Under the pieces are notes generated by a model. It saw nothing but the letters and a program-made list of their open reading frames with translations, was not told the origin of the DNA and ran no database searches. From Altererythrobacter sp. B11 (GTDB taxonomy: Bacteria > Pseudomonadota > Alphaproteobacteria > Sphingomonadales > Sphingomonadaceae), in contig NZ_AP018498.1 in NCBI RefSeq assembly GCF_003569745.1, positions 992,001 through 1,056,000 of the forward strand: a stretch of DNA of 64,000 nucleotides. Direction: 5' to 3'. A program made the translations under genes and the position numbers. Every line of letters starts with the position of its first letter. The stretch's first letter is position 1. Shown one piece after another: positions 16,721 to 36,490 of this stretch.

Positions 16721-16748
16721 TTGTATAATCGTTAGTGAAGCATACAAT
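16721..16748 (+). promoter_or_regulatory. Promoter with overlapping inverted repeat, likely MarR operator
   Basis: TTGTAT (16721-16726) and ATACAA (16742-16747) form an inverted repeat. The same arms fit a -35 (TTGTAT) and, after 16 bp, a -10 (TACAAT, 16743-16748) for the dioxygenase gene. Between them lies TAATCGTTA, a small palindrome of its own. A protein bound here would block the promoter. AAGGAG precedes the ATG at 16771. Confidence 0.55.
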
Positions 16749-16770
16749 CGGGTGCAAGGAGAGGAACCCC

Positions 16771-18252
16771 ATGGCACAATTCCCGGACACGCCAAATTTT
16801 ACCGGCTTCAACACGCCCTCGCGCGTCGAGGCCGATATCAAGGACCTGCAGCACACGGGCACGATTCCGCCCGAGCTGGACGGGGCGTTCTTCCGGGTGC
16901 AGCCCGATCCGCAGTTCCCGCCGATGCTGGGCGACGACATCGCCTTCAACGGCGATGGCATGATCAGCCGCTTCCATTTCCATGACGGCCAGTGCGATTT
17001 CCGCCAGCGCTGGGCGCAGACCGACAAGTGGAAGGCGGAACGCGCCGCCGGCCGCGGCCTCTATGGCAAGTATCGCAATCCGCTGACCGACGATCCTTCG
17101 GTGAAGGGCTCGATCCGCTCCACCGCCAACACCAACGCCTGGATATTCGCCGGCAAGCTGTGGGCGATGAAGGAAGACAGTCCGGCGCTGCTGATGGACC
17201 CGGTGACGATGGAGACCGAGGGGTTCGAGAAGTTCGGCGGCAAGATGACCGGCCAGACCTTCACCGCGCATCCCAAGATCGACCCCCACACCGGCAACAT
17301 GGTGGCGATCGGCTATGCCGCCAGCGGCCTGTGCAGCGAGGATGTGACCTATTACGAGGTGAATCCGGAGGGCGAGCTGGTCCGCGAAGTGTGGTTCAAG
17401 GTGCCCTATTACTGCATGATGCATGATTTCGGCGTCACCGAAGATTACCTCGTGCTGCACATCGTGCCCTCCATCGGCTCGTGGGAGCGGCTGGAGAAGG
17501 GCCTGCCGCACTTCGGCTTCGACACCACAATGCCGGTCTATCTGGGTGTCATCCCCCGCCGCGACGATGTGCGGGACGAGGATATCCGCTGGTTCAAGCG
17601 CGACAATTGCTTCGCCAGCCATGTGCTGAACGCCTGGCAGGAAGGCACGAAGATCCACTTCGTGGTGCCGGAAGCGAAGAACAACATGTTCCCCTTCTTC
17701 CCCGACGTGCACGGTGCGCCGTTCAACGGCGTGGAAGCGATGAGCAAGCTGACCGACTGGGTGGTGGACCTTGCCAGCAATGGCGAGGACTTCGCCGAGA
17801 TCAACCGGCTGACCGACACGGCCAGCGAGTTCCCGCGGATCGACGATCGCTATACTGGCCTCAAGAACCGCTATGGCTGGGGGCTGGAAATGGACATGAG
17901 CCGCCCGAACGAGCTGCGAGGCGGCAGCGCCGGCGGATTCCTGATGAACTGCCTGTTCCTGAAGGACCTGGAAACGGGCGCCGAACAGCATTGGTGGTGC
18001 GGCCCCGTCAGCAGCTTGCAGGAACCCTGCTTCATCCCGCGCAGCAAGGATGCGCCCGAAGGCGATGGCTGGATCGTGATGGTCTGCAACCGGCTGGAAG
18101 ATCACCGCAGCGACCTGCTGCTGTTCGACGCGCTGGATATCGAGAAGGGTCCGATCGCCACGATCCAGGTGCCCATCCGCCTGCGCTTCGGCCTGCACGG
18201 CAATTTCGCCCGCAGCGAGGATATCGGCCTGAAAGTTCCCGAGCCGGCCTGA
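16771..18252 (+). CDS. lsdA: Lignostilbene alpha,beta-dioxygenase (carotenoid-cleavage oxygenase family)
   Basis: Non-heme Fe(II) enzyme that splits the central double bond of 4-hydroxystilbenes such as lignostilbene, giving two aromatic aldehydes (vanillin from lignostilbene). The 493-aa protein has the four-His iron set: His167 (TAHPKID), His218 (MMHDFGV), His284 (ASHVLNAW) and His476 (GLHGNFA). From memory of LsdA work, Phe59, Tyr101 and Lys134 contact the substrate's 4-hydroxyl ring; all three are at the same positions here. That argues for a true stilbene enzyme rather than a carotenoid oxygenase. RBS AAGGAG before ATG 16771. Whether it matches LsdA or LsdD in specificity is open. Confidence 0.9.
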   Translation: MAQFPDTPNFTGFNTPSRVEADIKDLQHTGTIPPELDGAFFRVQPDPQFPPMLGDDIAFNGDGMISRFHFHDGQCDFRQRWAQTDKWKAERAAGRGLYGKYRNPLTDDPSVKGSIRSTANTNAWIFAGKLWAMKEDSPALLMDPVTMETEGFEKFGGKMTGQTFTAHPKIDPHTGNMVAIGYAASGLCSEDVTYYEVNPEGELVREVWFKVPYYCMMHDFGVTEDYLVLHIVPSIGSWERLEKGLPHFGFDTTMPVYLGVIPRRDDVRDEDIRWFKRDNCFASHVLNAWQEGTKIHFVVPEAKNNMFPFFPDVHGAPFNGVEAMSKLTDWVVDLASNGEDFAEINRLTDTASEFPRIDDRYTGLKNRYGWGLEMDMSRPNELRGGSAGGFLMNCLFLKDLETGAEQHWWCGPVSSLQEPCFIPRSKDAPEGDGWIVMVCNRLEDHRSDLLLFDALDIEKGPIATIQVPIRLRFGLHGNFARSEDIGLKVPEPA

Positions 18253-20204: not shown

Positions 20205-21863
20205 TCAGGCCGCCACCGCCTCCTTCGCGTCCGCCAGCACCAGGTCGGCGCCTTTTTCCGCGACCATGATCGTGGGGGCATTGGTGTTGCCGCTGGGGAT
20301 CTTCGGGAAGACCGAAGCGTCGATCACCCGCAGCCCCTCGACGCCGCGCAGCCGCAGCTGCGGATCCAGCGGGAAGCGTTCGTCCCCCATCGCGACCGTG
20401 CCCACCGCGTGATACAGCGTGCCGCCGGCGACCTTGGCATATTCCAGCATCTGGTCGTCCGTTTCGCCGAAGGGATCGCCGGGAACCTTCAGATAGCGCG
20501 CCAGCGCCGGCTGCTGCCAGATCTTGCGGACGAGCTTGAGCTGATCGACCACGCTCTGCCGGTCGATCGGATCGGACAGATAGTTCGGCACGATCCGCGG
20601 CGTTTCCATGCCATCGCGTGACTTGGCGTGAATGGATCCGCGCGATTCCGGCCGCAGCTGGCAGGGGTTGGAGGCCATGCCCGGTTCCTTGTCCAGCCGC
20701 AGACCCTGATATTCGTTGAGATAGGCCAGATCCATGCTGGCCGCCATCACGTGGATCTGGATATCGGGGAAGTCCAGCTCCTCCCGGCTCTTGGCGAAGA
20801 CGCAGCCGTGACCGACCGCGTAGGACAGCAGGCCCTTGCGGCTGACGCCGTATTTGGCGATCTGGCCGAGCAGCTTCACGCCGCGGCTGAGGTGATTGAT
20901 CGAGTGGGCCTCTTCCTTGAGATAGGCCTGGCAGCCGATCATGAAGTGATCCTGCAGGTTCTCGCCCACCATGGGCGATTCATGCACCACTTCGACGCCC
21001 AGTTCCTTCAGCAGGTCGCCCCGGCCCACGCCTGAAATCTCAAGCAGCTTGGGGCTTTCCACCGCGCCTGCCGCCAGGATCACTTCGCGCCGCACCATCA
21101 CCTTGCGCGTCTCGCCGCCCTGGCGAAATTCCACGCCCACGGCCTTCTTGCCTTCGAACAGGAGGCGGGTGGTCATCGCGCGGGTTTCCACCAGCAGGTT
21201 TTCCCGCCCCATGGCCGGGTGGAGGTAGGCAACGGCGGCGGAATGGCGGCGGCCGTTCTTGGCGGTCATCTGGAAGAAACTGACGCCTTCCTGGTTCCCG
21301 TCGTTCAGATCTTCCTTGTAGGGAATGCCCGCTTCCACGCAGGCTTCCACCAGCGCCGCGCTGACCGGATGCTGTTCGGGAAAGTCCGAGACATTGAGCG
21401 GACCGCCCACGCCGTGGAATTCGTTCTCCCCCCGCTCCTGATTCTGGCTCTTGCGGAAATAGGGGAGCACATCGTCCCAGCTCCAGCCGCGGGCGCCCAT
21501 CTGGGCCCAGCCGTCATAATCCGCCGATTGCCCGCGGACATACAGCAGGCCGTTGATGGAGCTCGACCCGCCCAGCACCTTGCCCTTGGGCCATTTGTGC
21601 TTGCGGTTGCCCGACCCCTCGTCGACCTCCGTCTCGTAAAGCCAGTTGACCTTCGGGTCGTTCAGCGTCTTGCCGAAGCCGATGGGGGTGTGGATCATCA
21701 CGTTGGACATGAACTGGCTGGGTTCGCGCAGCGGCCGATCGTCCCCGCCTGCTTCCAGCAGCACCACCTTGAATTCGCCGCTGGCCGTCAGCCGGTTTGC
21801 CAGCACGCAGCCCGCGCTGCCCGCGCCCACGATGACATAGTCCGCATACAGATCCGCTGCCAC
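20205..21863 (-). CDS. GMC-family FAD oxidoreductase, PhcC/PhcD-like candidate
   Basis: FAD-dependent alcohol oxidase or dehydrogenase, 552 aa. N-terminal FAD fold DYVIVGAGSAGCVLANRLT, GMC signature 1 (GKVLGGSSSINGLLYVRG) and the catalytic His/Asn region (GGTLYHAVGT; PSGNTNAPTIM). GTG start at 21863 behind GAGGAG. In Sphingobium SYK-6, GMC proteins PhcC and PhcD oxidise the gamma-alcohol of the lignin phenylcoumaran DCA-C, each for one enantiomer. This gene is divergent from a DUF3237 gene, the family of the next enzymes in that pathway. The same pairing recurs at 34.8-38.1 kb. Family certain, substrate inferred; choline dehydrogenase is a less likely alternative. Confidence 0.9.
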   Translation of the reverse strand: MAADLYADYVIVGAGSAGCVLANRLTASGEFKVVLLEAGGDDRPLREPSQFMSNVMIHTPIGFGKTLNDPKVNWLYETEVDEGSGNRKHKWPKGKVLGGSSSINGLLYVRGQSADYDGWAQMGARGWSWDDVLPYFRKSQNQERGENEFHGVGGPLNVSDFPEQHPVSAALVEACVEAGIPYKEDLNDGNQEGVSFFQMTAKNGRRHSAAVAYLHPAMGRENLLVETRAMTTRLLFEGKKAVGVEFRQGGETRKVMVRREVILAAGAVESPKLLEISGVGRGDLLKELGVEVVHESPMVGENLQDHFMIGCQAYLKEEAHSINHLSRGVKLLGQIAKYGVSRKGLLSYAVGHGCVFAKSREELDFPDIQIHVMAASMDLAYLNEYQGLRLDKEPGMASNPCQLRPESRGSIHAKSRDGMETPRIVPNYLSDPIDRQSVVDQLKLVRKIWQQPALARYLKVPGDPFGETDDQMLEYAKVAGGTLYHAVGTVAMGDERFPLDPQLRLRGVEGLRVIDASVFPKIPSGNTNAPTIMVAEKGADLVLADAKEAVAA

Positions 21864-21974
21864 TTCTTGCTCCTCTCGTCAGTTCCGCGCACGTCAGGCG
21901 CGCGCTTGCTTGCCCAATGCGCCGGGACCATTACCCTGTCCACTTGCATGAAAGCATGGCTGGAGGACGGGACA

Positions 21975-22436
21975 TTGATCAAGCCCAATCTTGAGTTTGT
22001 TTACGAGGCGGGCGGCGATCTCGAACCGCCGCGGGAAATCGGCAAGGTGGTGGATGGCACACGGCGCATCATCCCGATCCTGGCCGGGGGATATGTGAAG
22101 GGGCCGAAGATCAGCGGCCGGCTGATGGGCAATTCGGCGGACTGGCAGCTCACCCGGCACGACGGGGTGACGGTGGCCGACGCCATCTATGCCATTGAAA
22201 CCGATGACGGCGCGCTGATCCAGATCCGCAACAAGGGCCTGCGCCATGGCCCGCCGGAGGTGATGGACCGGCTGCGGCGCGGGGAAGAGGTGGACCCGGC
22301 CGAATATTATTTCCGCACCGTGCCCGAATTCATCGCGCCCGAAGGGCCGTACGACTGGCTCAACAAGTCGATCTTCGTCTGCTCCGGCGCGCGCTATGCC
22401 AGCGGCATCCGCTTGTGGGTGTGGCGCGTCACCTGA
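21975..22436 (+). CDS. DUF3237 protein, PhcF/PhcG-like decarboxylase candidate
   Basis: About 153 aa in a beta-barrel-like DUF3237 (UPF0311) pattern: PNLEFVYEAGGDLEPPREIG, GGYVKGPKISGRLMGNSADW, DAIYAIETDDGALIQIRNKG and a Y-F-R-T-x-P-E-F block. The start is probably TTG 21975 with GGAGG 8 bases upstream; ATG 21948 lacks a site. In SYK-6 the DUF3237 proteins PhcF and PhcG decarboxylate the oxidised phenylcoumaran to a stilbene, as I recall the published work. Divergence from a GMC oxidase gene and nearness to a lignostilbene dioxygenase support the same role here. Most DUF3237 proteins have no known function. Confidence 0.75.
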   Translation: MIKPNLEFVYEAGGDLEPPREIGKVVDGTRRIIPILAGGYVKGPKISGRLMGNSADWQLTRHDGVTVADAIYAIETDDGALIQIRNKGLRHGPPEVMDRLRRGEEVDPAEYYFRTVPEFIAPEGPYDWLNKSIFVCSGARYASGIRLWVWRVT

Positions 22437-23874: not shown

Positions 23875-23888
23875 GCCCGCCTCCGCGA

Positions 23889-25427
23889 TCAGGAAATCCG
23901 CACGTCGAGCAGGCTCGGCCCGCTTTGTGCCAGGCTCCAGGAGATGGCGGCGTCGAGATCGTCCACCGTATCCACCCGCCGCGCCGGCACGCCCTGCGCT
24001 TCGGCAAGCTGCACGAAGTCCAGCCCGCTGAGATCGCAGCCCGGCACATGGTTCATCCCGAACTCGCCCGCGAAGCCTGTCAATGCGGCATAGGCGGCGT
24101 TGTTGAGGATCACGAAGCTGACATTCGCCGCCTCCGCGCGGGCTGAGAACAGTCCCTGGATGGTGTACATCGCCGCCCCGTCGCCCAGCACGGCGATCAC
24201 CTTGTCCTCCTGGCCCAGCGCCACGCCCACGGCTGCCGGCAGCGAATAGCCCAGGCCGCCGCTGGCGCAGGTGTAGAACCCCCCTTCGCGCGTGATCGGC
24301 AGCGTATCGTGCACGGGCCCGCGGGCCGTGGGTGCCTCTTCCACGATCACCGCCTCTGCCGGGCGCAGCGCGGCAAGGCGGGACAGCACATGCGCGGCGG
24401 TCATCCCCGGCTCCGGCGTGCGCAGCTGGTGGCTTTCGCCGGCGAAGGCGCGCGCGGCAACCCGCCCGGCGAGCGCGTCGAGCCCCGCCGCGACATCGCC
24501 CAGTACGCCATAGCCGCCGGGCAGCGAGGCGAGGTGCTGCGGATCTTCGCTCAGCGCGGCCAGTCGCGCGTGCTCCGGCCAGTGCGGCCCGCTGCCTTCG
24601 ACATGGTAGGTAAAGACCGGGGCACCGGCGACGAGGATCGCATCATGCGGCGCCAGCAGGCCGCGGATCTTGTCCCGCCATGCGGGGAGGAAGCCGGCGA
24701 ATTGCGGATGGTTTTCGGGGAAAGCCTCCCGCGCGGCATAGGGCGCGGCCCACACGCTGGCCCCGCAGCGTTCGGCAAGCCGGATGGCGGCGTCCCAGCC
24801 GTGGCAATTGGCGACGCCGGTGCCCAGCACCAGCGCCGGACGCTCGGCCCCATCCAGCAGCGCGGCCAGTCGCTCGATCCCCGCAGGGTCGGGATAGGTC
24901 CGCAGTGCGAGATCGGGAAGGGCGGGCATTTCGCAATCCCGGTCCCAGTCGTCCACCGGGATGGACACGAACACCGGCCCCATCGGGGGTGTCAGCGCCA
25001 CGGCGAAGGCGCGGGCGAGGGCCAGCGGCACATCCTCCGCCCGGGCAGGCTCCACGGCGAACTTCACATAGGGGCGGGGGAATTCGGTCGGCCGCTCGGC
25101 AAACAGGAAGGGATCATGCGGCAGGATGCTGCGCGCCTGCTGCCCGGCGGTGACCACCACCGGCGCATTGTTCTTGTAGGCGGTGAAGAGGTTGCCCAGC
25201 GAATGGCCCGTGCCGGCGGAGCTGTGCAGGTTCACCAGCGCCGGCCGCCCGCTCGCGCGGGCATAACCATCGGCCATGCCCACCACCACGGCCTCGTTCA
25301 GCCCCATCACATAGGGGAAGGGCATGGCCTTGAGCATCGGCAGTTCGGTGCTGCCGGGATTGCCGAACAGGCGATCCACGCCGAAATGCTGGAAGACTTT
25401 GAAGGCGGCTTCACGGACTGTGGGCAT
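23889..25427 (-). CDS. Thiamine-diphosphate 2-oxoacid decarboxylase, benzoylformate decarboxylase-like
   Basis: 512 aa. The three ThDP-enzyme domains are present: LFGNPGSTELP at the start, the activating Glu45 in LNEAVVVG, LHSSAGTGHS, YHVEGSGP mid-protein and the ThDP/Mg motif VLGDGAAMYTIQGL. Ser26 of GNPGSTE and the His residues of LHSS and TYHVEG correspond to the catalytic Ser26, His70 and His281 of Pseudomonas benzoylformate decarboxylase (MdlC), pointing to an aromatic 2-oxoacid decarboxylase rather than acetolactate synthase. It abuts the MFS gene with no gap in the ligW operon. Possible substrate: an aroyl-formate from a lignin side chain (inference). Confidence 0.82.
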   Translation of the reverse strand: MPTVREAAFKVFQHFGVDRLFGNPGSTELPMLKAMPFPYVMGLNEAVVVGMADGYARASGRPALVNLHSSAGTGHSLGNLFTAYKNNAPVVVTAGQQARSILPHDPFLFAERPTEFPRPYVKFAVEPARAEDVPLALARAFAVALTPPMGPVFVSIPVDDWDRDCEMPALPDLALRTYPDPAGIERLAALLDGAERPALVLGTGVANCHGWDAAIRLAERCGASVWAAPYAAREAFPENHPQFAGFLPAWRDKIRGLLAPHDAILVAGAPVFTYHVEGSGPHWPEHARLAALSEDPQHLASLPGGYGVLGDVAAGLDALAGRVAARAFAGESHQLRTPEPGMTAAHVLSRLAALRPAEAVIVEEAPTARGPVHDTLPITREGGFYTCASGGLGYSLPAAVGVALGQEDKVIAVLGDGAAMYTIQGLFSARAEAANVSFVILNNAAYAALTGFAGEFGMNHVPGCDLSGLDFVQLAEAQGVPARRVDTVDDLDAAISWSLAQSGPSLLDVRIS

Positions 25428-27059
25428 TCAGATGATCTCCCCTCCGGCGCGGGCGCGGTCGAGGATGCTGGCTTCATCCCGGCGCACGCGCGTGAGGATG
25501 AACAGCAGGATGACCACGATCAGCGGCGCCACGATGTTGACCGAGATAATCGCCTGCCCCAGGTCGCCCCCGTTGCGATCGGACACGATCCCCACGAAAT
25601 AGGGGCCGATGCCAAGGCCGAGCAGCGTCATCACGATGGTATAGGTCGAGAAGGTGATGCCCCGCATCCGCGGCAGCACCAGTTCCAGCAATTGGGCGTA
25701 GAGCGGCGGCAGCCAGATGGTGAGGATCAGGCTGTAGAAGGTGAAGCGCAGGTAGAAGCTGCCCGCACTTTCGGCGCTGAAGGTCCAGATGCCGAGCAGC
25801 GGCGACACGCCGAGCGCGAACAGGATCAGCCACACGCGCCCCGAAGCGCCCAGCTTCTTCGTCAGCCAGTCCGTCAGCGGCCCGGCGGCAAGCGGGCCGG
25901 CCATGCCCAGCGCGGCAGAGAGCAGGCCGAACTGCAGCCCGGTCTGCGCCATGGAGAGCCCGTATTCCCGCACCAGGAAGGAGGGGGTGAAGCCCATGAT
26001 GCCGTAGTTGATTGAGGTCTGCAGGCCCCCGACCACCATCAGCAGGACCAGCGAGGGCGACAGCATTACCCGATAGGCGGGCGCATCGGTCAGCTTGAAG
26101 GACTGGAACAGGTTGAGGATCACGAACAGGCCGAAGCCGACGACGAACCACTGCAGCACATGCGGATCGAGCGCGAGGCCCAGCGCATGGACCGGCGGCC
26201 GCGGTGAATAGCTTTGCGCGACGGCCGTCATCGTCGAACAGAAGGCGAGAATGATCGCGAGGCCGATGAGGTTGATCGCCCACTGCCGCGCGCCAGCCTT
26301 GCGGTGCCACAGCATGAACCAGTTGCTGCCCGGCGTCACTGCGCCCAGCACGGCGGCGCTGGCCTTGAAAGGGTGCGGATCGGGGCGGGCGACGATGCCG
26401 TCCATCCTGCCGCGGACCGGCTCGCGCATGCGCCAGATCAGCCAAGCCAGCGGCAGCCCCGGAGCGGCGGCGACGAGGAAGGCGAATTGCCAGCCGGAAA
26501 AGCCCAGCGGCGCACCGCCTGCGGCGTAGCGCGTGTCCCACCATTGGGCCACGACCCCGCCCAGTGTCATGGAGAGGCCGAGGCCCAGCGATACGGCGAT
26601 GCCCATCGCGGCCATGGCGGTGCCGCGCCGTTCCCGCGGGAATTCGTCGAAGATGATGCTGTTCGCGGCGGGCTGGGTGGCGCCTTCCCCGATGCCCACG
26701 CCCAGGCGCGAGACGGCGAGGAGAGTGAAGCCCGAGGCGAACGCCGCGAGCCCTGCCGCCACCGACCAGGCGGCGAGGCAGACCGCCAGCAGGCGGGTGC
26801 GGATCCACCCGTCCACCAGCCGCCCGAGGGGCAGCGAGAACAGCGCGTAGAAGAGGGCGAACACCGTCCCGTAGAGCAGGCCCAGCTCCGCATCGCCGAT
26901 ATTCAAATCGGCACGGATGCTGGGGGCCAGGATCGAGAGGATCTGCCGGTCGAGCAGGCTCATCGCCTGCGCCGCCGAGACCAGGGTCAGGGCATACCAC
27001 CCCGCCCGCGAGACCCTAGGAACCGATCGCGGACTGTCGTCAGCGGCTGTCGTCGCCAT
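25428..27059 (-). CDS. MFS transporter (spinster/phthalate-carrier-like) in the ligW operon
   Basis: 543 aa with about 12 membrane segments. Near the start is SLLDRQILSILAPSIRADL, a 'D-R-x-x-x' motif of MFS carriers that take organic acids, then LPLGRLVDGWIRTRLL and VGIGEGATQPAANSIIFDEF. The central loop is long and soluble. Substrate unknown; an aromatic acid is likely because the gene is flanked by the BFDC-like enzyme (stop and start adjacent) and, 145 bp upstream, the quinone-reductase-like gene. It may be co-transcribed with ligW. Confidence 0.83.
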   Translation of the reverse strand: MATTAADDSPRSVPRVSRAGWYALTLVSAAQAMSLLDRQILSILAPSIRADLNIGDAELGLLYGTVFALFYALFSLPLGRLVDGWIRTRLLAVCLAAWSVAAGLAAFASGFTLLAVSRLGVGIGEGATQPAANSIIFDEFPRERRGTAMAAMGIAVSLGLGLSMTLGGVVAQWWDTRYAAGGAPLGFSGWQFAFLVAAAPGLPLAWLIWRMREPVRGRMDGIVARPDPHPFKASAAVLGAVTPGSNWFMLWHRKAGARQWAINLIGLAIILAFCSTMTAVAQSYSPRPPVHALGLALDPHVLQWFVVGFGLFVILNLFQSFKLTDAPAYRVMLSPSLVLLMVVGGLQTSINYGIMGFTPSFLVREYGLSMAQTGLQFGLLSAALGMAGPLAAGPLTDWLTKKLGASGRVWLILFALGVSPLLGIWTFSAESAGSFYLRFTFYSLILTIWLPPLYAQLLELVLPRMRGITFSTYTIVMTLLGLGIGPYFVGIVSDRNGGDLGQAIISVNIVAPLIVVILLFILTRVRRDEASILDRARAGGEII

Positions 27060-27204
27060 GGTACTTCATTCCCCTCCCAGAGATGCTGCTGCCGAAGGAT
27101 GCGGTAGCAGCAACGCGGCCCGGCACTTGCGATCCGCAGGGCGGCCGGGGCGGCGGCATCCGCTGCACCGGCGGCCTTTGCCCGCAAGCCGCGCGTGTGT
27201 TCCG

Positions 27205-28059
27205 TCAGCGCAGCGCGCGGGCGATGGTTTCGGCGATGGGCGTGGTCGGCCTTCCGGCGAGCCGGCTCAGATCGCCGCTCTCGTCGTGCAGCGCGCCCTT
27301 TGCGGTCAGGGCGCTGGTGCTGGCGAGCATCGCTGCGACGGGCGGCGGCAGGCCGGCACCTTCCAGCACCTTGGCGAATTCGCCCTCGCTCAGATTGCGA
27401 TATTCGACCGGCTTGCCGGCAAGGCGCGAAACCTCTGCAGCGAATTCCGCCATGGTCCAGCTTTCGTCACCCGCCAGTTCGTAAACATCGCCGCCCTTGC
27501 CGCTGACCAGCGCGGCGGCTGCTCCCGCGGCGAAGTCCGCCCGCGCGGCGGAGGAAATCCGGCCTTCGCCGGCCGCACCCAGGATCGCGCCCGTTTCCAG
27601 CGCCTGCCCGAGCCCGCCGGTGTAGTTTTCCGAATACCAGCCGTTGCGCAGGATGTCGTAATTCAGCTTGCTTGCAGCCAGCAGCCGTTCGGTGGCCACA
27701 TGCTCCGGCGCGAGCTGGAGCGGAGAGGCATCACCCTTCAGGATCGAGGTATAGGCGAAATAGGACACGCCGGCCTTTTCCGCTGCGCGGATGACATTGC
27801 CGTGCTGGCGCTCCCGCTCTCCAACGGCGTTGCCGGAGATCAGCAGCAGCCGGTCCACGCCCTGCAGGGCGGCATCGAGCGAGGCCGGATCATCATAGTC
27901 GGCCTGCCGCAGCTGCACGCCCTTGTCGGCGTAGGTGGACAGCTTGCCGGTGTCGCGCGCGAGGGCGACGACATCGGCAGGCTCCACCTTCAGCAGCAGT
28001 TCGTCGAGCACCAGTGTGCCCAGCTTGCCCGTGGCGCCGGTAACGGCATAGGTGGCCAT
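27205..28059 (-). CDS. NmrA-like NAD(P)-binding protein, quinone oxidoreductase 2 (YtfG)-like
   Basis: 284 aa atypical short-chain dehydrogenase with TGATGKLGTLVLDELL at the N-terminus for NAD(P)H binding, LLLISGN, and YFAYTSILKG. There is no classical YxxxK pair. Closest by pattern are QOR2/YtfG proteins that reduce quinones with NADPH. A quinone reductase beside aromatic genes could protect from catechol or methoxyquinone redox cycling, which is inference. It starts 12 bp downstream of ligW and reads in the same direction. Confidence 0.85.
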   Translation of the reverse strand: MATYAVTGATGKLGTLVLDELLLKVEPADVVALARDTGKLSTYADKGVQLRQADYDDPASLDAALQGVDRLLLISGNAVGERERQHGNVIRAAEKAGVSYFAYTSILKGDASPLQLAPEHVATERLLAASKLNYDILRNGWYSENYTGGLGQALETGAILGAAGEGRISSAARADFAAGAAAALVSGKGGDVYELAGDESWTMAEFAAEVSRLAGKPVEYRNLSEGEFAKVLEGAGLPPPVAAMLASTSALTAKGALHDESGDLSRLAGRPTTPIAETIARALR

Positions 28060-28071
28060 GATCGTCCTCTC

Positions 28072-29127
28072 TTACAACTTGAACCAGCGCTCGGCATTGG
28101 TCTGGAAGAACTTCTTCTTCTGCGAGTCGCTGATGTCCATATCGTCCATCCAGCGTACTTCCTCGGGCAGATACTGATAGGGGTAATCCATCGCATACAT
28201 TACGCGATCTTCCCCCATCACCTCGATCATTAGCTTGATCGCCGGCTCGAATGCCATGCCGCTGTTGGTGGCGAGCACATTGTTGCGCAGATAATGGAAC
28301 AGATCGTGCTGCAGCGGCTGCAGGCGCGGATAGCGCTGCGAGCGCACGCCGGCGCGATGCATGTAGTCGTGGCGATAGATCCAGTAGGGGATCGCCTCGC
28401 AGCCGTGGCCCAGCATCATCTGCAGGCCGGGATAGCGATCGAACACGCCGGTGGTCAGCATCCGCAGCCCGTGGAAGCTCGTCTCCACGCCGAAGCCGAA
28501 CACGGCGCCGTCCAGCCCGGCTTCCACCATGCTGCCGATCATGCCGTCGGGCGGACCCTGCGGGTGGATGTAGAGCGGCAGGTCCAGATCGGCGCAGGCG
28601 CGCAGGATCGGGTCGAACTGCTCCTCGTCCAGATAGTGGCCATGCGTGTGGCTGTTCACCTGCACGCCGTGGAAGCCCAGTTCTTCCTTGCCGCGGCGCA
28701 GTTCCTCCGCCGACCATTCCGGATCCTGCGGCGCGATGGCGATCATGCCGTAGAACCGATCGGGATAGCGCTCGCACGCGTCCTTCAACTGGTTGTTGCT
28801 GTTGCGGGCGATGCGCTTCGCTTCCTCGACATCATGCAGCGACTGCACACCGGGGCTGGTCATCGCCAGCACCGCCTTGTCGATGCCGCTGTCGTCCATC
28901 GCTTGGATGCGCAGTTCGCCCAGGTCCAGCAGGCGCTCGCGAATGAAGGTCGTGCGTTCGGAAGGGCTGGTGCCATAAAAGCCCCACAGCGACATGGTGC
29001 CCTTGTCGGCGCGGCCTTCCTTCACCAGCCGCATGATCGCATCCAGCTGTTCCTGCGTGGCGAAGGCTTCTTCCGTGGCGATGCGCAGATAGCCGCGATC
29101 CCCGCCGGTCTTCAGTTCATGTGTCAT
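28072..29127 (-). CDS. ligW: 5-Carboxyvanillate decarboxylase (LigW-type amidohydrolase-superfamily enzyme)
   Basis: Mn2+-dependent decarboxylase that turns 5-carboxyvanillate into vanillate in the catabolism of 5-5 (biphenyl) lignin dimers. The 351-aa sequence is strikingly like SYK-6 LigW as I remember it, from its first residues (MTHELKTGGDRGYLRIATEE) to the end (NAERWFKL). At identical numbering are the metal ligands Glu19, His188 (YIHP) and Asp314 (YAMDYPYQY), His241 (LGHG), and the substrate arginines Arg58 (SPSERTT) and Arg252 (YWIYRHDY). Start ATG 29127. The neighbours are an aldehyde dehydrogenase upstream and a quinone reductase downstream. Gamma-resorcylate decarboxylase is a related but less close alternative. 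Confidence 0.88.
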   Translation of the reverse strand: MTHELKTGGDRGYLRIATEEAFATQEQLDAIMRLVKEGRADKGTMSLWGFYGTSPSERTTFIRERLLDLGELRIQAMDDSGIDKAVLAMTSPGVQSLHDVEEAKRIARNSNNQLKDACERYPDRFYGMIAIAPQDPEWSAEELRRGKEELGFHGVQVNSHTHGHYLDEEQFDPILRACADLDLPLYIHPQGPPDGMIGSMVEAGLDGAVFGFGVETSFHGLRMLTTGVFDRYPGLQMMLGHGCEAIPYWIYRHDYMHRAGVRSQRYPRLQPLQHDLFHYLRNNVLATNSGMAFEPAIKLMIEVMGEDRVMYAMDYPYQYLPEEVRWMDDMDISDSQKKKFFQTNAERWFKL

Positions 29128-29241
29128 GCTTGCCTCGATCTTGCTGCGCATCCCTCGCCGGGCTCGGGATGGCGAATGAATTGCTTCGGGTCGGCGGCGC
29201 GCGCGGGCCGGGCGGTGCCGGCACGCGCGCCGAACGCCCGA

Positions 29242-30672
29242 CTAGGCTTCGTGGACGGTCTTGGTCACCATGCAGGCGAGTACGCCTTCCGGCCCGTCCT
29301 CGCTGCCATGGCCGGACCATTTCACGCCGCCGAAGGGCGCGTCGGCCCCGCCGATCATGTGGCTGTTGATGCCCACCATGCCTGCCTCGATCTCCGTCGC
29401 AAGGCGGCGCTGGCGGCCCGCATCGCCGGTCCAGGCGTAGGCGGCAAGACCATAGGGGAGGCGGTTCGCTTCGGCGATCATGTCCTCTTCGCCCTTGAAG
29501 GGGTTGATGAGGGCGACGGGGCCGAAGGGCTCCTCGTTCATGATTTCTGCGTCCAGCGGGATTTCAGACAGCACGCTGGGCGCATAGAAGAAGCCGCGAT
29601 TGCCGATCCGCTCGCCGCCATGGCCCAGCTTGGCGCCGCGGCTCTTCGCGTCGCCGATCAGGCGGTCCATCGCTTCGGGGCGGCGCGGATTGGCCATGGG
29701 GCCCATCTGCGTGCCGTCCTCCAGCCCGTCGCCCACCTTCACCTTCCTGGCGCGTTCGATGAAGCCGTCGCGGAACCGTTCGAACACATTCTCTTCGACG
29801 ATGAAGCGCGTGGGGCTGACGCAGACCTGGCCGCAATTGCGGTATTTGCCGGCAACGGCGGTATCCAGCGCCTTGTCCAGATCGGCATCACCGAACACCA
29901 GCACCGGGCCATGCCCGCCCAGTTCCATCGTGGTCCGCTGCATGTTGTCCGCCGCCAGCTTGGCGAGATGCTTGCCCACCGCGGTGGAGCCGGTGAAGCT
30001 GAGCTTGCGGATAATCGGGCTGCCGAGCAGGTGGCGGCTCACCTCATCCGGCACGCCGAACACCGCCTGGCCCACTTCCTTGGGCAGGCCCGCGTCGAGC
30101 AGGCACTGCAGCACGGCAAGGGCGCTCGCCGGCGTCTCTTCCGCGCATTTGAGGATCACGGAGCAGCCCGCGGCCACCGGCGCACCCAGCTTGCGGCCGG
30201 GATTGCCGATCGGGAAGTTCCACGGGGCGAAGGCGGCCACGGGCCCGACCGGCTCGTGCCGCACGGTGGAGCGCATGCCTTCCGGGCGCACCAGCTCGCG
30301 GCCGTAGAGGCGGAAGCATTCGCCGGCGTAGAAATTGAACAGGCCGACATTCATCATCACTTCGATGCGGCTTTCGGCCAGCGGCTTGCCCTGTTCCATC
30401 GTGGCGATGCGGGCAATGTCCTCCTGCCGTTCCATCATCAGGCGGGCCGCGCCCTGCAGCACGGCTGCGCGCTGCTGCGGGGTGGACTTGCGCCAGATGC
30501 GGAAGCCCTTCTCCGCCACTTCGAGCGCACGGTCGAGATCGGCCGCTTCGGCCAGCGGCAGCGCGCCGATCGGTTCGCCGGTTACGGGGTTCACCACATC
30601 GAACGTGCGGCGGCCGCCGCCCGATACCTTCTCGCCGTCGATGATCATGTGCAGGCTGGGATATTCGGCCAC
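29242..30672 (-). CDS. NAD(P)-dependent aldehyde dehydrogenase
   Basis: 476 aa of the succinate-semialdehyde/aromatic aldehyde dehydrogenase group. Motifs: FAPWNFPIGNPGRKLG, SFTGSTAVGKHL, catalytic Glu in TMELGGHGPVLVF and catalytic Cys in YRNCGQVCVSPTRF. The GTG at 30672 is used because GAGGAG lies 6 bases upstream; a longer reading to 30696 lacks a site. Placed just ahead of ligW, it may oxidise an aromatic aldehyde (vanillin-type or 5-formyl acids arising from stilbene cleavage) to the acid that LigW or LigM then uses. Substrate is inferred from context only. Confidence 0.88.
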   Translation of the reverse strand: MAEYPSLHMIIDGEKVSGGGRRTFDVVNPVTGEPIGALPLAEAADLDRALEVAEKGFRIWRKSTPQQRAAVLQGAARLMMERQEDIARIATMEQGKPLAESRIEVMMNVGLFNFYAGECFRLYGRELVRPEGMRSTVRHEPVGPVAAFAPWNFPIGNPGRKLGAPVAAGCSVILKCAEETPASALAVLQCLLDAGLPKEVGQAVFGVPDEVSRHLLGSPIIRKLSFTGSTAVGKHLAKLAADNMQRTTMELGGHGPVLVFGDADLDKALDTAVAGKYRNCGQVCVSPTRFIVEENVFERFRDGFIERARKVKVGDGLEDGTQMGPMANPRRPEAMDRLIGDAKSRGAKLGHGGERIGNRGFFYAPSVLSEIPLDAEIMNEEPFGPVALINPFKGEEDMIAEANRLPYGLAAYAWTGDAGRQRRLATEIEAGMVGINSHMIGGADAPFGGVKWSGHGSEDGPEGVLACMVTKTVHEA

Positions 30673-30787: not shown

Positions 30788-30843
30788 TTCTGCTTACAAT
30801 CCTGAAACGGACACGGAAAGCTGTCAACGTTCGCGCGGCCCGA

Positions 30844-32256
30844 TCAGAGCCCTTGCGCCTCCAGCCGCTCCACTTCCTCGCGATAGGGGCGGATGGCGCG
30901 CCACATGGAGAAGGTGGCGATCGGCATGAAAACCGCCGCAACGATCAGCAGGGCTTCCCACAATTTGTCGGGATCGCCCACGATCACATCGCTGACCGTG
31001 CCGATCACGAAGCTGCCCATGGCGCCGAAGAAGGTGTACATGAAGAGATAGAGCGCCGTCACCTGCCCCCGCATGGCATTGGGCGCGATGCGCTGGATCG
31101 CTGCATTCTGCGCCGGCGCACCGGCAAGGCCGAAGAAGGCGGTCATCGCCATGCAGCCCAGCGCCAGTTCGCCGCTCGGCATCAGCGGAGCGGCAATGGC
31201 GAACACGGTGGTGCAGGAAAAGATGATCGCCGTGGCGCGGATATTGCCGTCCTTGTGGCGCTTGTTCATCCAGCTGACGAAGATGCCGCCCATCAGCAGG
31301 CCCAGCAGGCTTGCCGTCAGCAGGAGCGGGGCGAGCAGATTGCCGATCTCCGCCTCGCTCCAGCCATAGGTGCGCGCCACGAAGGGCACGCGCCAGGCGG
31401 GCAGGCCCTGGCTTTCGATGGCCGACATGGCGAGGGCGATGAACAGCGGCCAGTACACCGCGCCGCGCGTGTTTATGGCCTTGAGCGCGTCCAGCCCGGT
31501 GAAGGCCAGCAACCGGCGGCCGAGGGGCGCTCCGGCTGGGACCAGCGGCTCTCCCTGCGCCGGATTGCGCCGCGGCGGTTCCTTCACGGTCAGGAACATC
31601 AGGGATGCAACCAGCCCGGGCACGCCGATGATGATGAGGATCCACTGCCAGCTGAAGATCGTCAGCCCGGCGAAGCTGCTCGTCGCGGGCAGCGTGTCGG
31701 TCCAGGCGATCATCCGCCCGCCGCCCCAGGTGCCGAGCGCATTGGCCAGGGTATAGGACAGCTGCATCAGCGCGAAGACCAGCGGGATGCGCATGGGGCG
31801 GAAATAATCCGCCATCATCGAATAGCTGCCCGGCCCGTTCGCCGCGCCGCCCGCGCCCACGAACAGGCGCGAGCCGACCAGCTGGCCGAAGCTTTGCGCC
31901 AGGCCGCCCAGCGCGGTGATCGTGCCGAGCGTGGCGATGCTGGCCGAGAGCACGAATTTGCGCGGATAGAGATCGACCAGCCGGGCGAGGGGGATGCCGA
32001 CGAAGACGAAGGCAACGATGCTCGCAGGCCCGAGCACGAAGCCCAGGGCGCTGTCCGACAGGGCGAAGCTGGCCTTGATCCGCTCCGCCAGCATGGCGAA
32101 CACGGTGGTGTCGAAGAAATTGAGAAAGGTGGAAAAGATGATCACGAACAGCGCGTAGAACCCGGCCTTTTCGCTCGGCCAGGGCGGGGACGCCGCGCCC
32201 GCCGCGGGCTCTTCCTGTTCAGCCACGATGGGCTGGGCACTGGGTGCGATCGCCAT
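30844..32256 (-). CDS. MFS transporter
   Basis: 470 aa, about 12 membrane segments after a 30-residue cytoplasmic Ala/Pro-rich N-terminus. NFFDTTVFAMLAERIKASF in the first segment and VGIPLARLVDLYPRKFVL in the loop mark a spinster-like or sugar-acid/aromatic-acid MFS carrier. It is divergent from the exported NTF2-like gene at 32405 across a 148-bp gap that contains GCCTagtaggAGGC and CCGtcgtaaaaCGG inverted repeats. Third MFS gene of the aromatic block; substrate not known. Confidence 0.82.
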   Translation of the reverse strand: MAIAPSAQPIVAEQEEPAAGAASPPWPSEKAGFYALFVIIFSTFLNFFDTTVFAMLAERIKASFALSDSALGFVLGPASIVAFVFVGIPLARLVDLYPRKFVLSASIATLGTITALGGLAQSFGQLVGSRLFVGAGGAANGPGSYSMMADYFRPMRIPLVFALMQLSYTLANALGTWGGGRMIAWTDTLPATSSFAGLTIFSWQWILIIIGVPGLVASLMFLTVKEPPRRNPAQGEPLVPAGAPLGRRLLAFTGLDALKAINTRGAVYWPLFIALAMSAIESQGLPAWRVPFVARTYGWSEAEIGNLLAPLLLTASLLGLLMGGIFVSWMNKRHKDGNIRATAIIFSCTTVFAIAAPLMPSGELALGCMAMTAFFGLAGAPAQNAAIQRIAPNAMRGQVTALYLFMYTFFGAMGSFVIGTVSDVIVGDPDKLWEALLIVAAVFMPIATFSMWRAIRPYREEVERLEAQGL

Positions 32257-32404
32257 TCCTCATCCTCCGGGCAACCCGCTCCGAGGTGGGCTGCAGCTTC
32301 TTTCCACTTGCCCGCATTTGTAGGTGGTGCCTAGTAGGAGGCGAAATAGAAAAATTGTCGCATTCCGTCGTAAAACGGCGGGTCGGACGGGAGAAGACGA
32401 GACA

Positions 32405-33067
32405 ATGCTTGGCAATCGTTGCGGGCGCGCTTCGGGCACGGCCCGACCCCACCAATCCGTCTTTCGCTTCCGCCGGGCCATCGCCGCCGCGGCGTTTTCC
32501 CTTTGCATCACAGGAGTTTCAGCCATGCCCGCAGCGGCCAGCCCCCAGGACTACAGCGACAGCTATGCGCGGGACCGTGCCGAGATCGAAGATCTCATGG
32601 CGCGCTATCTCTTCGCGATGGATTATAACGACATGGATGCCTATGTCGCGACCTTCACCGAGGATGGCGAGCTGGAATTCGCCAGCGGCACGGCGAAGGG
32701 GCGGGCCGATATCCGCAAGACGGCGCAGGCGTTCAAGGATCGCATCGGCAGCGTCTACAAGGATGTGGACGGCAATCCGGCGGTGCTGCGCCATGTGCTG
32801 GCGCATACGGTGATCCGGGTGGAGGGCGATCGCGCCTGGGCACGCGCCTTCTGGTATGAAATGGCCAATGACGGGCCGCGGAACGCATCCGGCCGCCTGA
32901 CGCCGCAGATCGGCACCTTCGGCATCTACGAGGATGAGCTGGAGAGGGTGGACGGCCACTGGCTATTCTCCAAGCGGCGCATTCTCAACGAATTCCTGCC
33001 CGGCCGCGATTCAGGCTCGGTCAATCCGGTGCAGCAGATGGATGCCGCGGCTGCCGCCACGAAGTAG
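32405..33067 (+). CDS. NTF2/SnoaL-like protein with signal peptide
   Basis: 220 aa. RFRRAIAAAAFSLCITGVSA with a following A-A-A-S forms a signal peptide, so the mature domain (from about residue 48) should be periplasmic. It is a SnoaL-like alpha+beta cone: RAEIEDLMARYLFAMDYNDM, then DAYVATFTEDGELEFASGTA, a central RHVLAHTVIRVEGDRAWAR and GTFGIYEDELERVDGHWLFSK. The NTF2 superfamily includes LdpA, the lyase that removes formaldehyde from beta-1 lignin dimers to make stilbenes. Export would be unusual for that role. It reads into the LigD-like gene 27 bp downstream. Start ATG 32405; ATG 32525 would give a version without signal peptide. Confidence 0.78.
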   Translation: MLGNRCGRASGTARPHQSVFRFRRAIAAAAFSLCITGVSAMPAAASPQDYSDSYARDRAEIEDLMARYLFAMDYNDMDAYVATFTEDGELEFASGTAKGRADIRKTAQAFKDRIGSVYKDVDGNPAVLRHVLAHTVIRVEGDRAWARAFWYEMANDGPRNASGRLTPQIGTFGIYEDELERVDGHWLFSKRRILNEFLPGRDSGSVNPVQQMDAAAAATK

Positions 33068-33094: not shown

Positions 33095-34015
33095 ATGAAG
33101 GATTTCGCGGGCCGTACCGCATTCGTGACCGGCGGCGCCAACGGTGTCGGTATCGGCATCGTGCGCAACCTGCTGAACGCGGGTTGCAAGGTCGCCATCG
33201 CCGACATTCGCCAGGATGCAATCGATCGCGCACTCGCCTCGCTCGACAATCGCGAGGTCATGGGAATCCGGCTGGATGTGTCGAGCCGGGAAGGTTTCCG
33301 TGAGGCGGCCGATCGGGCCGAGGCGGAACTCGGGCCGGTCAGCCTGCTGTTCAACAACGCCGGCGTGAACCTTTTCCAGTCGATCGAGGATTCGTCTTAC
33401 GACGATTGGGACTGGCTGCTGGGCGTGAACCTCCACGGCGTGATCAACGGCGTGATGACCTTCGCCCCGCGGATGAAGCAGCGGGTGCTGGCGGGGGAGC
33501 AGACGGGCGGACACATTACCAACACCGCCAGCATGGCGAGCTTCGTGGCCGGCGGCATTCCCGGCATCTACAACACCACCAAATTCGCCGTGCGCGGCCT
33601 GTCCTACTCGCTGCGCCATTCGATGTGCGACTATGGTATAGGCGTTTCCGTGGTGCATCCGGGGCTGGTGAAGAGCTACATCTACGCCAGCGACGATGTC
33701 CGGCCGGACGAGCTCAAGCGCGAGATGAAGCCGGTGGATACAGATCATGTGAAGCGCCTGGAGGGCGTGCACGAATTCGGCATGGAGCCCGACGTGATCG
33801 GGGAGCGCATCCTCGACGGCATTCGCGAGAACCGCGCCAACATCTTCACCCATCCTGACCACAAGGAGGAGGTGCGCGAGCTGTTCGACGAGATCCTGAG
33901 CGATTATCGCGACTATCCTCCGGATGCCGGGTTCGACCAGCGTGTGGGGTTCGAGAAGATGCGGCAGGAAAAGTTCAGCGAGACGCGGCGCAAGGCGCGC
34001 GATCTCGCCCGATAG
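33095..34015 (+). CDS. Short-chain dehydrogenase, LigD-like C-alpha dehydrogenase
   Basis: 306 aa, NAD(P)-dependent alcohol oxidation. FVTGGANGVGIGI binds the nucleotide; NNAGV, the Ser of NTASMAS and YNTTK complete the SDR set. The distinctive blocks SSYDDWDWLLGVNLHGVING and CDYGIGVSVVHPGLVKS, and the C-terminal EFGMEPDVIGERI, strongly resemble SYK-6 LigD/LigL/LigN, enzymes that oxidise the C-alpha hydroxyl of beta-aryl-ether lignin dimers. That makes a side-chain alcohol of a lignin-derived compound the best guess. RBS GGGAGAA precedes ATG 33095. No beta-etherase gene is near. Confidence 0.85.
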   Translation: MKDFAGRTAFVTGGANGVGIGIVRNLLNAGCKVAIADIRQDAIDRALASLDNREVMGIRLDVSSREGFREAADRAEAELGPVSLLFNNAGVNLFQSIEDSSYDDWDWLLGVNLHGVINGVMTFAPRMKQRVLAGEQTGGHITNTASMASFVAGGIPGIYNTTKFAVRGLSYSLRHSMCDYGIGVSVVHPGLVKSYIYASDDVRPDELKREMKPVDTDHVKRLEGVHEFGMEPDVIGERILDGIRENRANIFTHPDHKEEVRELFDEILSDYRDYPPDAGFDQRVGFEKMRQEKFSETRRKARDLAR

Positions 34016-34777: not shown

Positions 34778-35305
34778 TCAGACCAGCGCGTAATAACGCA
34801 GCAGATTGCCGTCGCTGCGCCGCTCGCCCACGCCGATGAAGACGTGCTTGGTCAGCCAGTCATGCTTGCCCACGGGGCATTCGAAGGTGGGATTGCCGCG
34901 CAGGTAATAGTCTTCATGCGGAACCGGCTCCCCACCGTTGAAGGCCCAGTCGCGCAGGCGCGCCATCGTGTCCGGCTTGCGCCCCCACAGGAAACCCTTG
35001 TTGTTGAGCAGGATGATCGTGCCGTCCTCCTCCTCCAGCAGATAGCGCGCATCGAAGCAGGCAACGTCGTCGGGGCGAAAATAGGCATAGTCCCCGCCCG
35101 ATCCGGGCACGGCCCGCCCGCGGATGTTCGGCCCTTCGAAATGCCCGCCCTGCACCAGCACGGCGGAACGCATGCCGCCATTGGGATGCGGGGCGATGGT
35201 GAACACCTCGGGAAAGGTCAGCCGCACTTCCATCGCGAATTCCATCCGCGGATTGTCCAGCGTGGAGAAGGGCGGCGCGAAGGGGGTGGTGTCGGAGAAT
35301 TGCAT
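34778..35305 (-). CDS. DUF3237 protein, second PhcF/PhcG-like decarboxylase candidate
   Basis: 175 aa. Family blocks: LTFPEVFTIAPHPNGGMRSA, GGHFEGPNIRGRAVPGSGGD, DARYLLEEEDGTIILLNNKG, YYLRGNPTFECPVGKHDWL. It differs clearly from the copy at 21975 and carries a longer N-terminus (about 25 residues). It is the last gene of a minus-strand run starting with a GMC oxidase (38133), with SnoaL-like and SDR genes between, 14 bp after the SDR. If the PhcC/D-PhcF/G model holds, the two DUF3237 proteins would act on opposite enantiomers. The chemistry is known from SYK-6 homologues only. Confidence 0.78.
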   Translation of the reverse strand: MQFSDTTPFAPPFSTLDNPRMEFAMEVRLTFPEVFTIAPHPNGGMRSAVLVQGGHFEGPNIRGRAVPGSGGDYAYFRPDDVACFDARYLLEEEDGTIILLNNKGFLWGRKPDTMARLRDWAFNGGEPVPHEDYYLRGNPTFECPVGKHDWLTKHVFIGVGERRSDGNLLRYYALV

Positions 35306-36100: not shown

Positions 36101-36490
36101 TCAGAACGGCGAGTTCGGATTGGGCCCGCCCTCGATCACATCCTGCATCACATCCCAATGTTCCACGATCCGGCCGTGCTCGATCCGGAAGATGTCGATC
36201 ACGGCCCAGCCGAGGTCGCCCGGCCAGCGGCGGACATGGTAATGCACGGTGACGTGATCGCCATCCACGAAGGCGCGCTTCACATCATGCACCGCCTCCG
36301 GCGTCTGTTCGCGGATCATGTCGAGGAAGGCCTTGAGCGGTTCGCGCCCCGGCTCCACCGACTGGTTGTGCTGGATGTAGTCCGCCGCGATGAAGCGATC
36401 GACGGCGCCGGAATCCATCGGGTTCAGCACGTCGGAAAACAGGCCCATCACCAGATCGAGATTGGCCTGCTCCTCCGCCGTCCGGCTCAT
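36101..36490 (-). CDS. SnoaL/NTF2-like protein (predicted cytoplasmic)
   Basis: 129 aa, cone-shaped NTF2 fold pattern: NLDLVMGLFSDVLNPMDSGA, FIAADYIQHNQSVEPGREPL, then VHYHVRRWPGD and DIFRIEHGRIVEHWDVMQDV. The 'Y-I-Q-H-N' and 'I-V-E-H-W-D' pieces are typical of SnoaL-like polyketide-cyclase relatives with an unknown reaction. It overlaps the upstream GMC gene by ATGA, so it is made together with it. In Novosphingobium, NTF2 proteins LdpA and PcfL remove formaldehyde from lignin dimers; this is one of three candidates in the window. Confidence 0.8.
   Translation of the reverse strand: MSRTAEEQANLDLVMGLFSDVLNPMDSGAVDRFIAADYIQHNQSVEPGREPLKAFLDMIREQTPEAVHDVKRAFVDGDHVTVHYHVRRWPGDLGWAVIDIFRIEHGRIVEHWDVMQDVIEGGPNPNSPF

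Follow-up and report, generated by a model that had tools for sequence, protein, structure and literature searches.

The ferD-ligW-type operon and its ThDP gene

We analysed a window of 64,000 nucleotides from Altererythrobacter sp. B11 (contig NZ_AP018498.1, positions 992,001 to 1,056,000), which is part of a one-contig genome of 3.84 Mb and was annotated over about 11-43 kb of its length. The subject is a run of five genes on the minus strand (window positions 23889-30672), the last of which encodes a thiamine diphosphate (ThDP) enzyme of the benzoylformate decarboxylase (BFD) family. An initial annotation had described these five as one co-directional run, and all of them proved to be real genes on the same strand. 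The run begins with an aldehyde dehydrogenase (ALDH) gene at 29242..30672, which starts with GTG at 30672, has a GAGGAG site upstream and encodes a protein matching the Pfam family Aldedh (PF00171, 495.7 bits). Its top NCBIfam model was a succinate-semialdehyde dehydrogenase subfamily, with a score of 432.5 below the cut-off of 646.35. The protein is 77% identical to the ALDH encoded directly upstream of LigW in strain SYK-6 (locus L150), where the table in PMC12997858 lists ferD as SLG_12800 beside ligW2 as SLG_12810. Because of this synteny and identity we named it a FerD-type ALDH, that is, a predicted 5-formylferulate dehydrogenase. The second gene (28072..29151) encodes a LigW/LigW2-type decarboxylase, 71% identical to the protein of the same SYK-6 locus. 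Its closest solved relative is 5-carboxyvanillate decarboxylase (4inf/4qrn; phmmer, 2.4e-165), the next being 4icm at 2.3e-62, and alignment and motif position identify D322 as the Asp that is retained where 4qs5 reads Asn. Then follow an NmrA-family NAD(P)H reductase of the QOR2/ytfG-like kind (27205..28059; PF13460/PF05368; best PDB match ytfG, 2zcu, 2.7e-84), the major facilitator superfamily (MFS) carrier MFS1 (25428..27059; PF07690) and the ThDP enzyme itself (23889..25427), which scored 640.5 bits on the NCBIfam model NF005485 (cut-off 493). The idea that the NmrA protein acts as a phenylcoumaran benzylic ether reductase found no support, its nearest PDB entries being ytfG and triphenylmethane reductase. 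From the ALDH to the ThDP gene the intergenic gaps measure 90, 12, 145 and 0 bp, so that the MFS1 stop abuts the ThDP start. A consensus scan of positions 23700-32500 found no sigma-70-like promoter, compared with 1.0 expected by shuffling, which is weak and uninformative evidence.

Conservation of the run was examined in two overlapping sets of loci: a named set, comprising the best 80 of 566 LigW matches and leaning to close relatives, and a family set drawn evenly from a larger group. The ThDP gene lay on the same strand as ligW and downstream of it in 22/22 family-set loci with both genes (24 were given, two of them without LigW) and in 36/36 such loci of the named set (80 given). Since order and strand are kept in every one of these loci, the five-gene run is not a product of chance. 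MFS1 stood upstream of the ThDP gene in 21 of the 22 and 31 of the 36 loci. Across the named set, FerD was present in 78/80 loci, the ThDP enzyme (at least 45% identity) in 36/80 and the NmrA gene in 22/80.

A survey of 397 Sphingomonadaceae genomes gave 43 with a ThDP match at E ≤ 1e-160 and 50 with a LigW match at E ≤ 1e-120. A ThDP homologue of at least 60% identity was present in 34 genomes. In 31 of these, ligW was no more than 6 kb away, an association with an odds ratio of 187 and p 1e-29 in a Fisher test uncorrected for kinship, and the remaining three (G212, G182 and G045) had no LigW match at E ≤ 1e-120. Nine homologues at 53-57% identity were excluded from the 34; one of them, in genome G317, adjoins LigW. 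The genomes carrying the ThDP gene spread over ten genus groups. In a tree of 59 rows, which has long branches for the Pseudomonas putida row and two others, 47 proteins (44 LigW-linked and three from genomes without LigW) formed one group with a support of 98/100. In part of the sphingomonads, the ThDP gene forms a conserved accessory to the ferD-ligW operon. As a separate observation, the LigW match of three genomes (G066, G103 and G315) reads through one in-frame stop codon, the remainder being well conserved.

In P. putida BFD, we take S26, E47, H70 and H281 to be catalytic residues and a further set of positions to form the substrate pocket. The window protein has equivalents of all four, so the BFD catalytic pattern recognised in the initial annotation is real; together with the equivalents of A460, L461 and F464 they are invariant in 58/58 distinct aligned proteins. 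The pocket as such is not of the P. putida type: A460, L461, F464 and C398 are retained, and nine of 17 positions differ (L109F, V113E, D114R, N117E, N374E, T377P, F397T, W463G and L476C). Within the 58-protein alignment, positions 109 (F), 114 (R), 117 (E) and 374 (E) are uniform, 113 is E in 56 proteins and 377 is P in 55, while 397 is T in 42, S in 14 and A in two; G occupies 463 in 41 proteins and C occupies 476 in 37. This pattern suggests that decarboxylase chemistry is probably kept within a different pocket. T377P and F397T, natural in the window protein, are also among the changes of the laboratory BFD mutant 4mpp. A structure model (mean predicted local distance difference test, pLDDT, of 78.8) matched the fold of BFD entries with a template modelling score of about 0.8; the pocket is unreadable in it because the pLDDT falls below 50 in residues 69-80, 94-100 and 104-119, the counterparts of BFD active-site loops in the alignment.

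Homologues of beta-5 pathway genes around the operon

In Novosphingobium aromaticivorans, the deletion and enzyme data given in the beta-5 sections of PMC11323797 have LsdD splitting a stilbene into vanillin and 5-formylferulate, FerD converting 5-formylferulate to 5-carboxyferulate, and LigW converting 5-carboxyferulate to ferulate; FerD oxidises vanillin as well. The same FerD and LigW steps are reported for SYK-6, as related in citing text. By analogy with the N. aromaticivorans homologue, we infer that the window LigW acts on 5-carboxyferulate or 5-carboxyvanillate.

An LsdD-type lignostilbene dioxygenase (LSD) gene is present in the same window at 16735..18252 on the plus strand; its product scored 869.1 bits on the LSD-alpha model NF053778 (cut-off 800) and is 78% identical to the LSD of the SYK-6 ligW2 region. 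The homologues of lsdD, ferD and ligW thus share one neighbourhood (window 16735-30672) that is syntenic with the SYK-6 locus, and lsdD and other beta-5 region genes lie about 2-12 kb from the five-gene run, a context absent from the initial annotation. Between lsdD and the run are a GMC oxidoreductase gene (20205..21863, minus strand; PF00732/PF05199) and the gene for DUF3237 protein a (21948..22436, plus strand; PF11578, 145.4 bits), the latter 73% identical to the SYK-6 DUF3237 protein beside lsdD. The GMC protein is 73% identical to the product of the SYK-6 GMC gene that comes right after the LigW and MFS genes, a position that fits hpvZ (SLG_12830) in the table of PMC12997858, in which lsdD is SLG_12860. 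We therefore call it HpvZ-like, and an identity as PhcC was dropped. On the other side, upstream of ferD, lies the second carrier MFS2 (30844..32256, minus strand; PF07690), which has a homologue of at least 45% identity in 59/80 named loci.

Further out, a SnoaL/NTF2-like protein (32324..33067, plus strand; PF13577) found no support as PcfL, being 28% identical over 152 residues to the PcfL-place protein of a relative, and no PcfL-place protein was found at the operon locus. The best match to that protein in the genome, at 40%, is encoded at G000:C1:267649-268338 (L199), adjoining the LigW-like gene L007, and is perhaps LdpA-like. A short-chain dehydrogenase gene follows at 33095..34015 (plus strand; PF00106); in N. 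aromaticivorans, the table of PMC12997858 places ligO and ligN at Saro_0793 and Saro_0794, near the pcfL-ferD genes. Two SYK-6 DUF3237 proteins encoded away from phcFG share 75% and 69% identity with DUF3237 protein b (34778..35305, minus strand; PF11578, 115.9 bits), and the tandem pair of a phcFG-like locus shares 42% and 39% with it. The SYK-6 match at 69% is located at 763 kb, about where pinX (SLG_07290) falls by tag number, which makes a lignan (pinoresinol-type) role of DUF3237 protein b possible. PinX has a DUF3237 domain and shares 42% identity with PhcG and 38% with PhcF, its decarboxylase relatives (PMC12607616). A second GMC oxidoreductase, GMC2 (36487..38133, minus strand; PF00732/PF05199), is PhcC/PhcD-like: it is 54% and 47% identical to a SYK-6 GMC pair whose locus also holds an LSD gene and two DUF3237 genes in tandem (phcCD-lsdB-phcFG-like), PhcC and PhcD being described as GMC oxidoreductases in PMC8191317. 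Candidates for ring opening are GMC2, through its 54% match to the GMC of the phcCD-like locus, and the two window DUF3237 proteins, which are 34-42% identical to the phcFG-like tandem pair.

Other features of the window were noted alongside. The stretches 41270-42730 (minus strand) and 39534-40589 (plus strand) hold an O-demethylase, which passed the cut-offs of both the DesA (841.1 against 800) and the LigM (592.5 against 580) models, and nearby an IclR-type regulator gene. An FzlA-like glutathione S-transferase (34071-34757, plus strand) scored 247.7 bits, short of the cut-off of 300, and has a homologue of at least 45% identity in 33/80 named LigW loci. An MFS carrier (14834-16207, minus strand) and a MarR-type regulator (16238-16795, minus strand) are 51% and 56% identical to a pair encoded downstream of the ThDP gene in genome G234. 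Pfam gave no match for the open reading frames at 6621, 7779, 9908, 15884, 18322, 38629, 40586 and 43445, some of which are probably wrong frames.

Use of ferulate requires ferB, and the genome holds a ferB homologue with 69% identity that exceeds the cut-off set for the p-hydroxycinnamoyl-CoA hydratase/lyase model. Ten proteins of the genome matched PF04909; the five compared with the PDB (the window LigW, the LigJ-like L001, the LigW-type L006, the LigW-like L007, and L004) included none closest to LigY, and of the others L003 is 53% identical to L006, while L002 and L008 resemble 4-sulfomuconolactone hydrolase with scores below the cut-off. Beyond the window, the genome encodes three more paralogues of the LigW family (L003, L006 and L007, all on G000:C1). 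The nearest PDB relative of L006 is the 5-carboxyvanillate decarboxylase 4icm, and its gene has a ferB homologue some 6 kb away and a gene for a LigB-type dioxygenase some 1 kb away. PF02900 had six matches, none of which was named LigZ by NCBIfam in a search that used no LigZ query, left out ligX and compared one of the six with the PDB. For N. aromaticivorans, the review table in PMC12997858 does not list ligX, ligY or ligZ homologues. The initial annotation had suggested that LigW here may not serve the biphenyl route through LigZ and LigY, which is probably correct, and had suggested a phenylcoumaran as the source of the 5-carboxylated ring, which is likely, the beta-5 chemistry of FerD and LigW being published. 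How such rings arise without LigZ and LigY already has a known answer, because that published chemistry runs from LsdD through FerD to LigW.

Role of the ThDP enzyme

The interpretation that we favour, and hold to be reasonably probable, is that the run forms the lower half of a beta-5 (phenylcoumaran) cluster in which the ThDP enzyme serves as an accessory aroylformate decarboxylase feeding FerD and LigW. Following the steps shown in relatives, the LsdD of the window would split a stilbene into vanillin and 5-formylferulate, FerD would convert the latter to 5-carboxyferulate, and LigW would release ferulate from it. The ThDP enzyme would be an added inlet, with the aldehyde having another source as well. 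It would convert lignin side-chain arylglyoxylates, such as 4-hydroxy-3-methoxybenzoylformate or one that bears the glyoxylate at ring carbon 5, to aldehydes, which would be processed by FerD and then, where an ortho-carboxylate results, by LigW. The comparison of genomes supports, as most likely, decarboxylation of an aroylformate by the ThDP enzyme with entry of the aldehyde into FerD (and LigW). Vanilloylformate would fit as a substrate because of the neighbourhoods in which the ThDP gene has an ALDH alone for company and because of the vanillin activity of FerD; an arylglyoxylate at ring carbon 5 would account for the tie to LigW, although the avoidance of PcfL loci that it predicts was not clearly seen.

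Loci that depart from the usual arrangement are informative here. In genomes G045 and G182, which belong to one genus, the ThDP gene is accompanied by genes for an MFS carrier and for an ALDH with 41% identity to FerD, and LigW is missing at E ≤ 1e-60. In G212 the ThDP gene stands beside a FerD of 73% identity, with no LigW at E ≤ 1e-120, and in G317 a ThDP gene of the other clade (53%) stands beside LigW (64%), LsdD (67%) and a DUF3237 protein. MFS carrier, LigW and ThDP enzyme occur together in Novosphingobium sp. SG707 (L168) and Sphingomonas sp. AR_OL41 (L171), and both loci also encode a regulator of the TetR type and a probable TonB receptor, each named by eye; the top model of the L168 carrier was aromatic acid/H+ symport, below the cut-off. 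AR_OL41 also has a second locus (L166) with ferD-ligW-MFS1-DUF3237-lsdD and no ThDP gene, so that its ThDP gene goes with a ligW copy of its own. A homologue of less than 60% identity occurred in 20 plasmid records, of which three were looked at: ALDH and MFS genes adjoin the ThDP homologue in Paraburkholderia sprentiae, and ALDH, TonB receptor and MFS genes adjoin it in Rhizorhabdus wittichii; the third is taken up below.

A number of observations weigh against the favoured interpretation. Many ferD-ligW loci do without the ThDP gene (it is present in 36 of the 80 named ones), FerD is absent from L168 and L171, and on the plasmid of Novosphingobium sp. EMRT-2 a 55% ThDP homologue lies beside a ring-hydroxylating dioxygenase with no ALDH. 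The ALDH of G182 scored best on succinate-semialdehyde dehydrogenase models, just below the cut-off (608.8 against 646.35), and its carrier on an aromatic acid/H+ symport model, at 288.6 also below the cut-off of 418.55, so that an aromatic substrate is not assured in that genome. As the pocket is unlike that of P. putida BFD and shares changes with 4mpp, family membership does not reveal the substrate, and the preference of the enzyme may be altered, even towards aliphatic substrates. Among the 30 window open reading frames scanned with Pfam there was no match to an FMN alpha-hydroxyacid dehydrogenase, and hence no obvious neighbour that would make an arylglyoxylate. Finally, we found no assay, transcript or mutant for the ThDP enzyme of this operon in the openly licensed literature.

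Some of these points would suit a gene that is an unrelated passenger at the operon end or that serves aliphatic 2-oxoacids: fewer than half of the named LigW loci contain the ThDP gene, its ALDH neighbour in G182 is similar to succinate-semialdehyde dehydrogenase, and P377 and T397 are as in 4mpp. However, strand, order and proximity are conserved over ten genus groups, the other-clade ThDP gene of G317 likewise adjoins LigW, LsdD and DUF3237 genes, and the aromatic pocket retains A460, L461 and F464; we regard this explanation as improbable. The BFD family also carries out carboligation, and formolase variants of BFD were among the structure matches, so a carboligase or lyase acting on lignin-derived acyloins or diketones might be envisaged in place of a decarboxylase. 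This appears very unlikely, as all 58 proteins retain S26, H70 and H281 of the decarboxylase and the sections consulted on the beta-5 pathway name no acyloin or diketone intermediate. In the series of the initial annotation, taken as the main flow of the operon, the ThDP enzyme would be the chief source of the aldehyde, leading from aroylformate through aldehyde and acid to vanillate by way of 5-carboxyvanillate. Gene order and the tight ThDP-LigW linkage speak for such a series, as do L168 and L171, where an operon of LigW and the ThDP enzyme has its own carrier and probable TonB receptor. Yet an LsdD homologue in the same window would yield the aldehyde, and SYK-6 and many relatives have ferD-ligW with no ThDP gene in the locus, so a need for the enzyme to supply the ALDH is not supported; moreover, the LigW of N. 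aromaticivorans works on 5-carboxyferulate (PMC11323797). A feed into 5-carboxyvanillate as originally proposed is not supported, we give the series as a whole little chance, and the main product of LigW here is, by analogy, probably ferulate from 5-carboxyferulate and not vanillate from 5-carboxyvanillate.

A more substantial possibility, though one that we judge to fall short of an even chance, is a general salvage of aryl-C2 compounds, in which vanilloylformate and its relatives would be converted to vanillin and oxidised by FerD or other ALDHs, the link to LigW reflecting no more than co-regulation by lignin. It has precedents in strains RHA1, Pf-5 and LLC-1, it would explain the ThDP-ALDH-carrier groups without LigW in G045 and G182, and FerD does oxidise vanillin (PMC11323797); SYK-6, too, has a 51% homologue near desA and ferB/ferA-like genes. 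On the other hand, the linkage is to ligW (31/34 genomes), L168 and L171 retain LigW and not FerD beside the ThDP gene, and in AR_OL41 a distinct ligW copy accompanies the ThDP gene. We also considered, as a rather unlikely variant, a second beta-5 way that retains Cγ: if the ring of the Cγ-carboxylate opened without decarboxylation, LSD-type cleavage of the 2,3-diarylacrylate so formed would yield vanillin together with a ring-5 arylglyoxylate, namely 5-(carboxycarbonyl)ferulate or -vanillate, which the ThDP enzyme would convert to 5-formylferulate or -vanillate for FerD and LigW. The E113/R114/E117 loop of the clade (P. putida numbering) would then bind the second carboxylate. If true, this way would be a direct cause of the LigW linkage, and it predicts more ThDP genes in loci without PcfL. 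Counted over the 67 of the 80 named loci that span at least 19 kb (13 were dropped), a PcfL-place protein was present in 18/34 loci with the ThDP gene versus 22/33 without it, so the prediction was not clearly seen, and a tie of the ThDP gene to the Cγ-oxidising (Phc) route with avoidance of PcfL loci was not supported. An HpvZ-like GMC was found in 12/34 and 6/33 of the same loci, respectively.

An accessory inlet for aroylformates into the ferD-ligW operon, as favoured above, would matter because the beta-5 pathway is a target for the conversion of lignin to single products, and its gene set has been drawn from SYK-6 and N. aromaticivorans. A ThDP gene conserved in the ferD-ligW operon of other sphingomonads, and not in the SYK-6 region, points to lignin substrates that the textbook route may miss. 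As a single enzyme of soluble type, it is directly assayable.

Comparison with known systems

The BFD family, the ferD-ligW operon and the chemistry of FerD and LigW are already known. Among the matches listed in a search of titles and abstracts of openly licensed papers, none linked lignin use by sphingomonads with a BFD-type gene attached to ferD-ligW. The words 'thiamine' and 'benzoylformate' are both missing from the main text of the two principal papers on the beta-5 pathway.

As an enzyme, the ThDP protein shares its fold and catalytic residues with MdlC, the BFD of P. putida (1bfd), from which it differs in the pocket. BFD-family enzymes also act in the 4-hydroxybenzoylformate pathway of Rhodococcus jostii RHA1 and Pseudomonas fluorescens Pf-5 and in the bzf cluster of Pseudomonas sp. 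LLC-1, which is described as comprising BFD, an MFS carrier, an aromatic aldehyde dehydrogenase and a porin (PMC7760541). The RHA1 enzyme converts 4-hydroxy-3-methoxybenzoylformate to vanillin, as reported in PMC9811514. Unlike in the window operon, LigW is absent from the passages that describe these systems, and the solved enzymes are distant from the ThDP protein (6qsi, 338.9 bits; 7orx, 322.4 bits), with 35-38% identity in structure alignment. The LLC-1 cluster is resembled by the neighbourhoods with ThDP, ALDH and MFS genes and no LigW, in G045, G182 and two plasmids. SYK-6 itself (G144) has, at about 2.688 Mb of C1 (L101), a BFD-family gene 51% identical to the window ThDP gene and above the same NCBIfam cut-off, located between zinc-alcohol-dehydrogenase-like genes and a beta-keto-acid-cleavage-like gene, with desA and ferB/ferA-like genes near.

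As a locus, the window is closest to the known beta-5 regions. In N. aromaticivorans DSM 12444 the cluster for the beta-5 lignin dimer dehydrodiconiferyl alcohol, pcfL-ferD-ligW-lsdD (Saro_0796, 0797, 0799 and 0802), brings the FerD, LigW and LsdD types together, as happens here; set beside that cluster as published, the window operon appears to differ in carrying a BFD-type gene. In the relative L193, an NTF2-like protein between MFS2 and ferD was named PcfL by place and kind, whereas the window has none there. The SYK-6 region ferD-ligW2-hpvZ-lsdD (SLG_12800-12860, locus L150, NC_015976) matches the window in MFS2 (59%), FerD (77%), LigW (71%), MFS1 (61%), GMC (73%), DUF3237 (73%) and LSD (78%), whereas the ThDP and NmrA genes are both absent from the 21 kb of that locus. 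Judged by gene order and identity, the operon is a syntenic counterpart of the known beta-5 region to which an NmrA and a ThDP gene appear to have been added.

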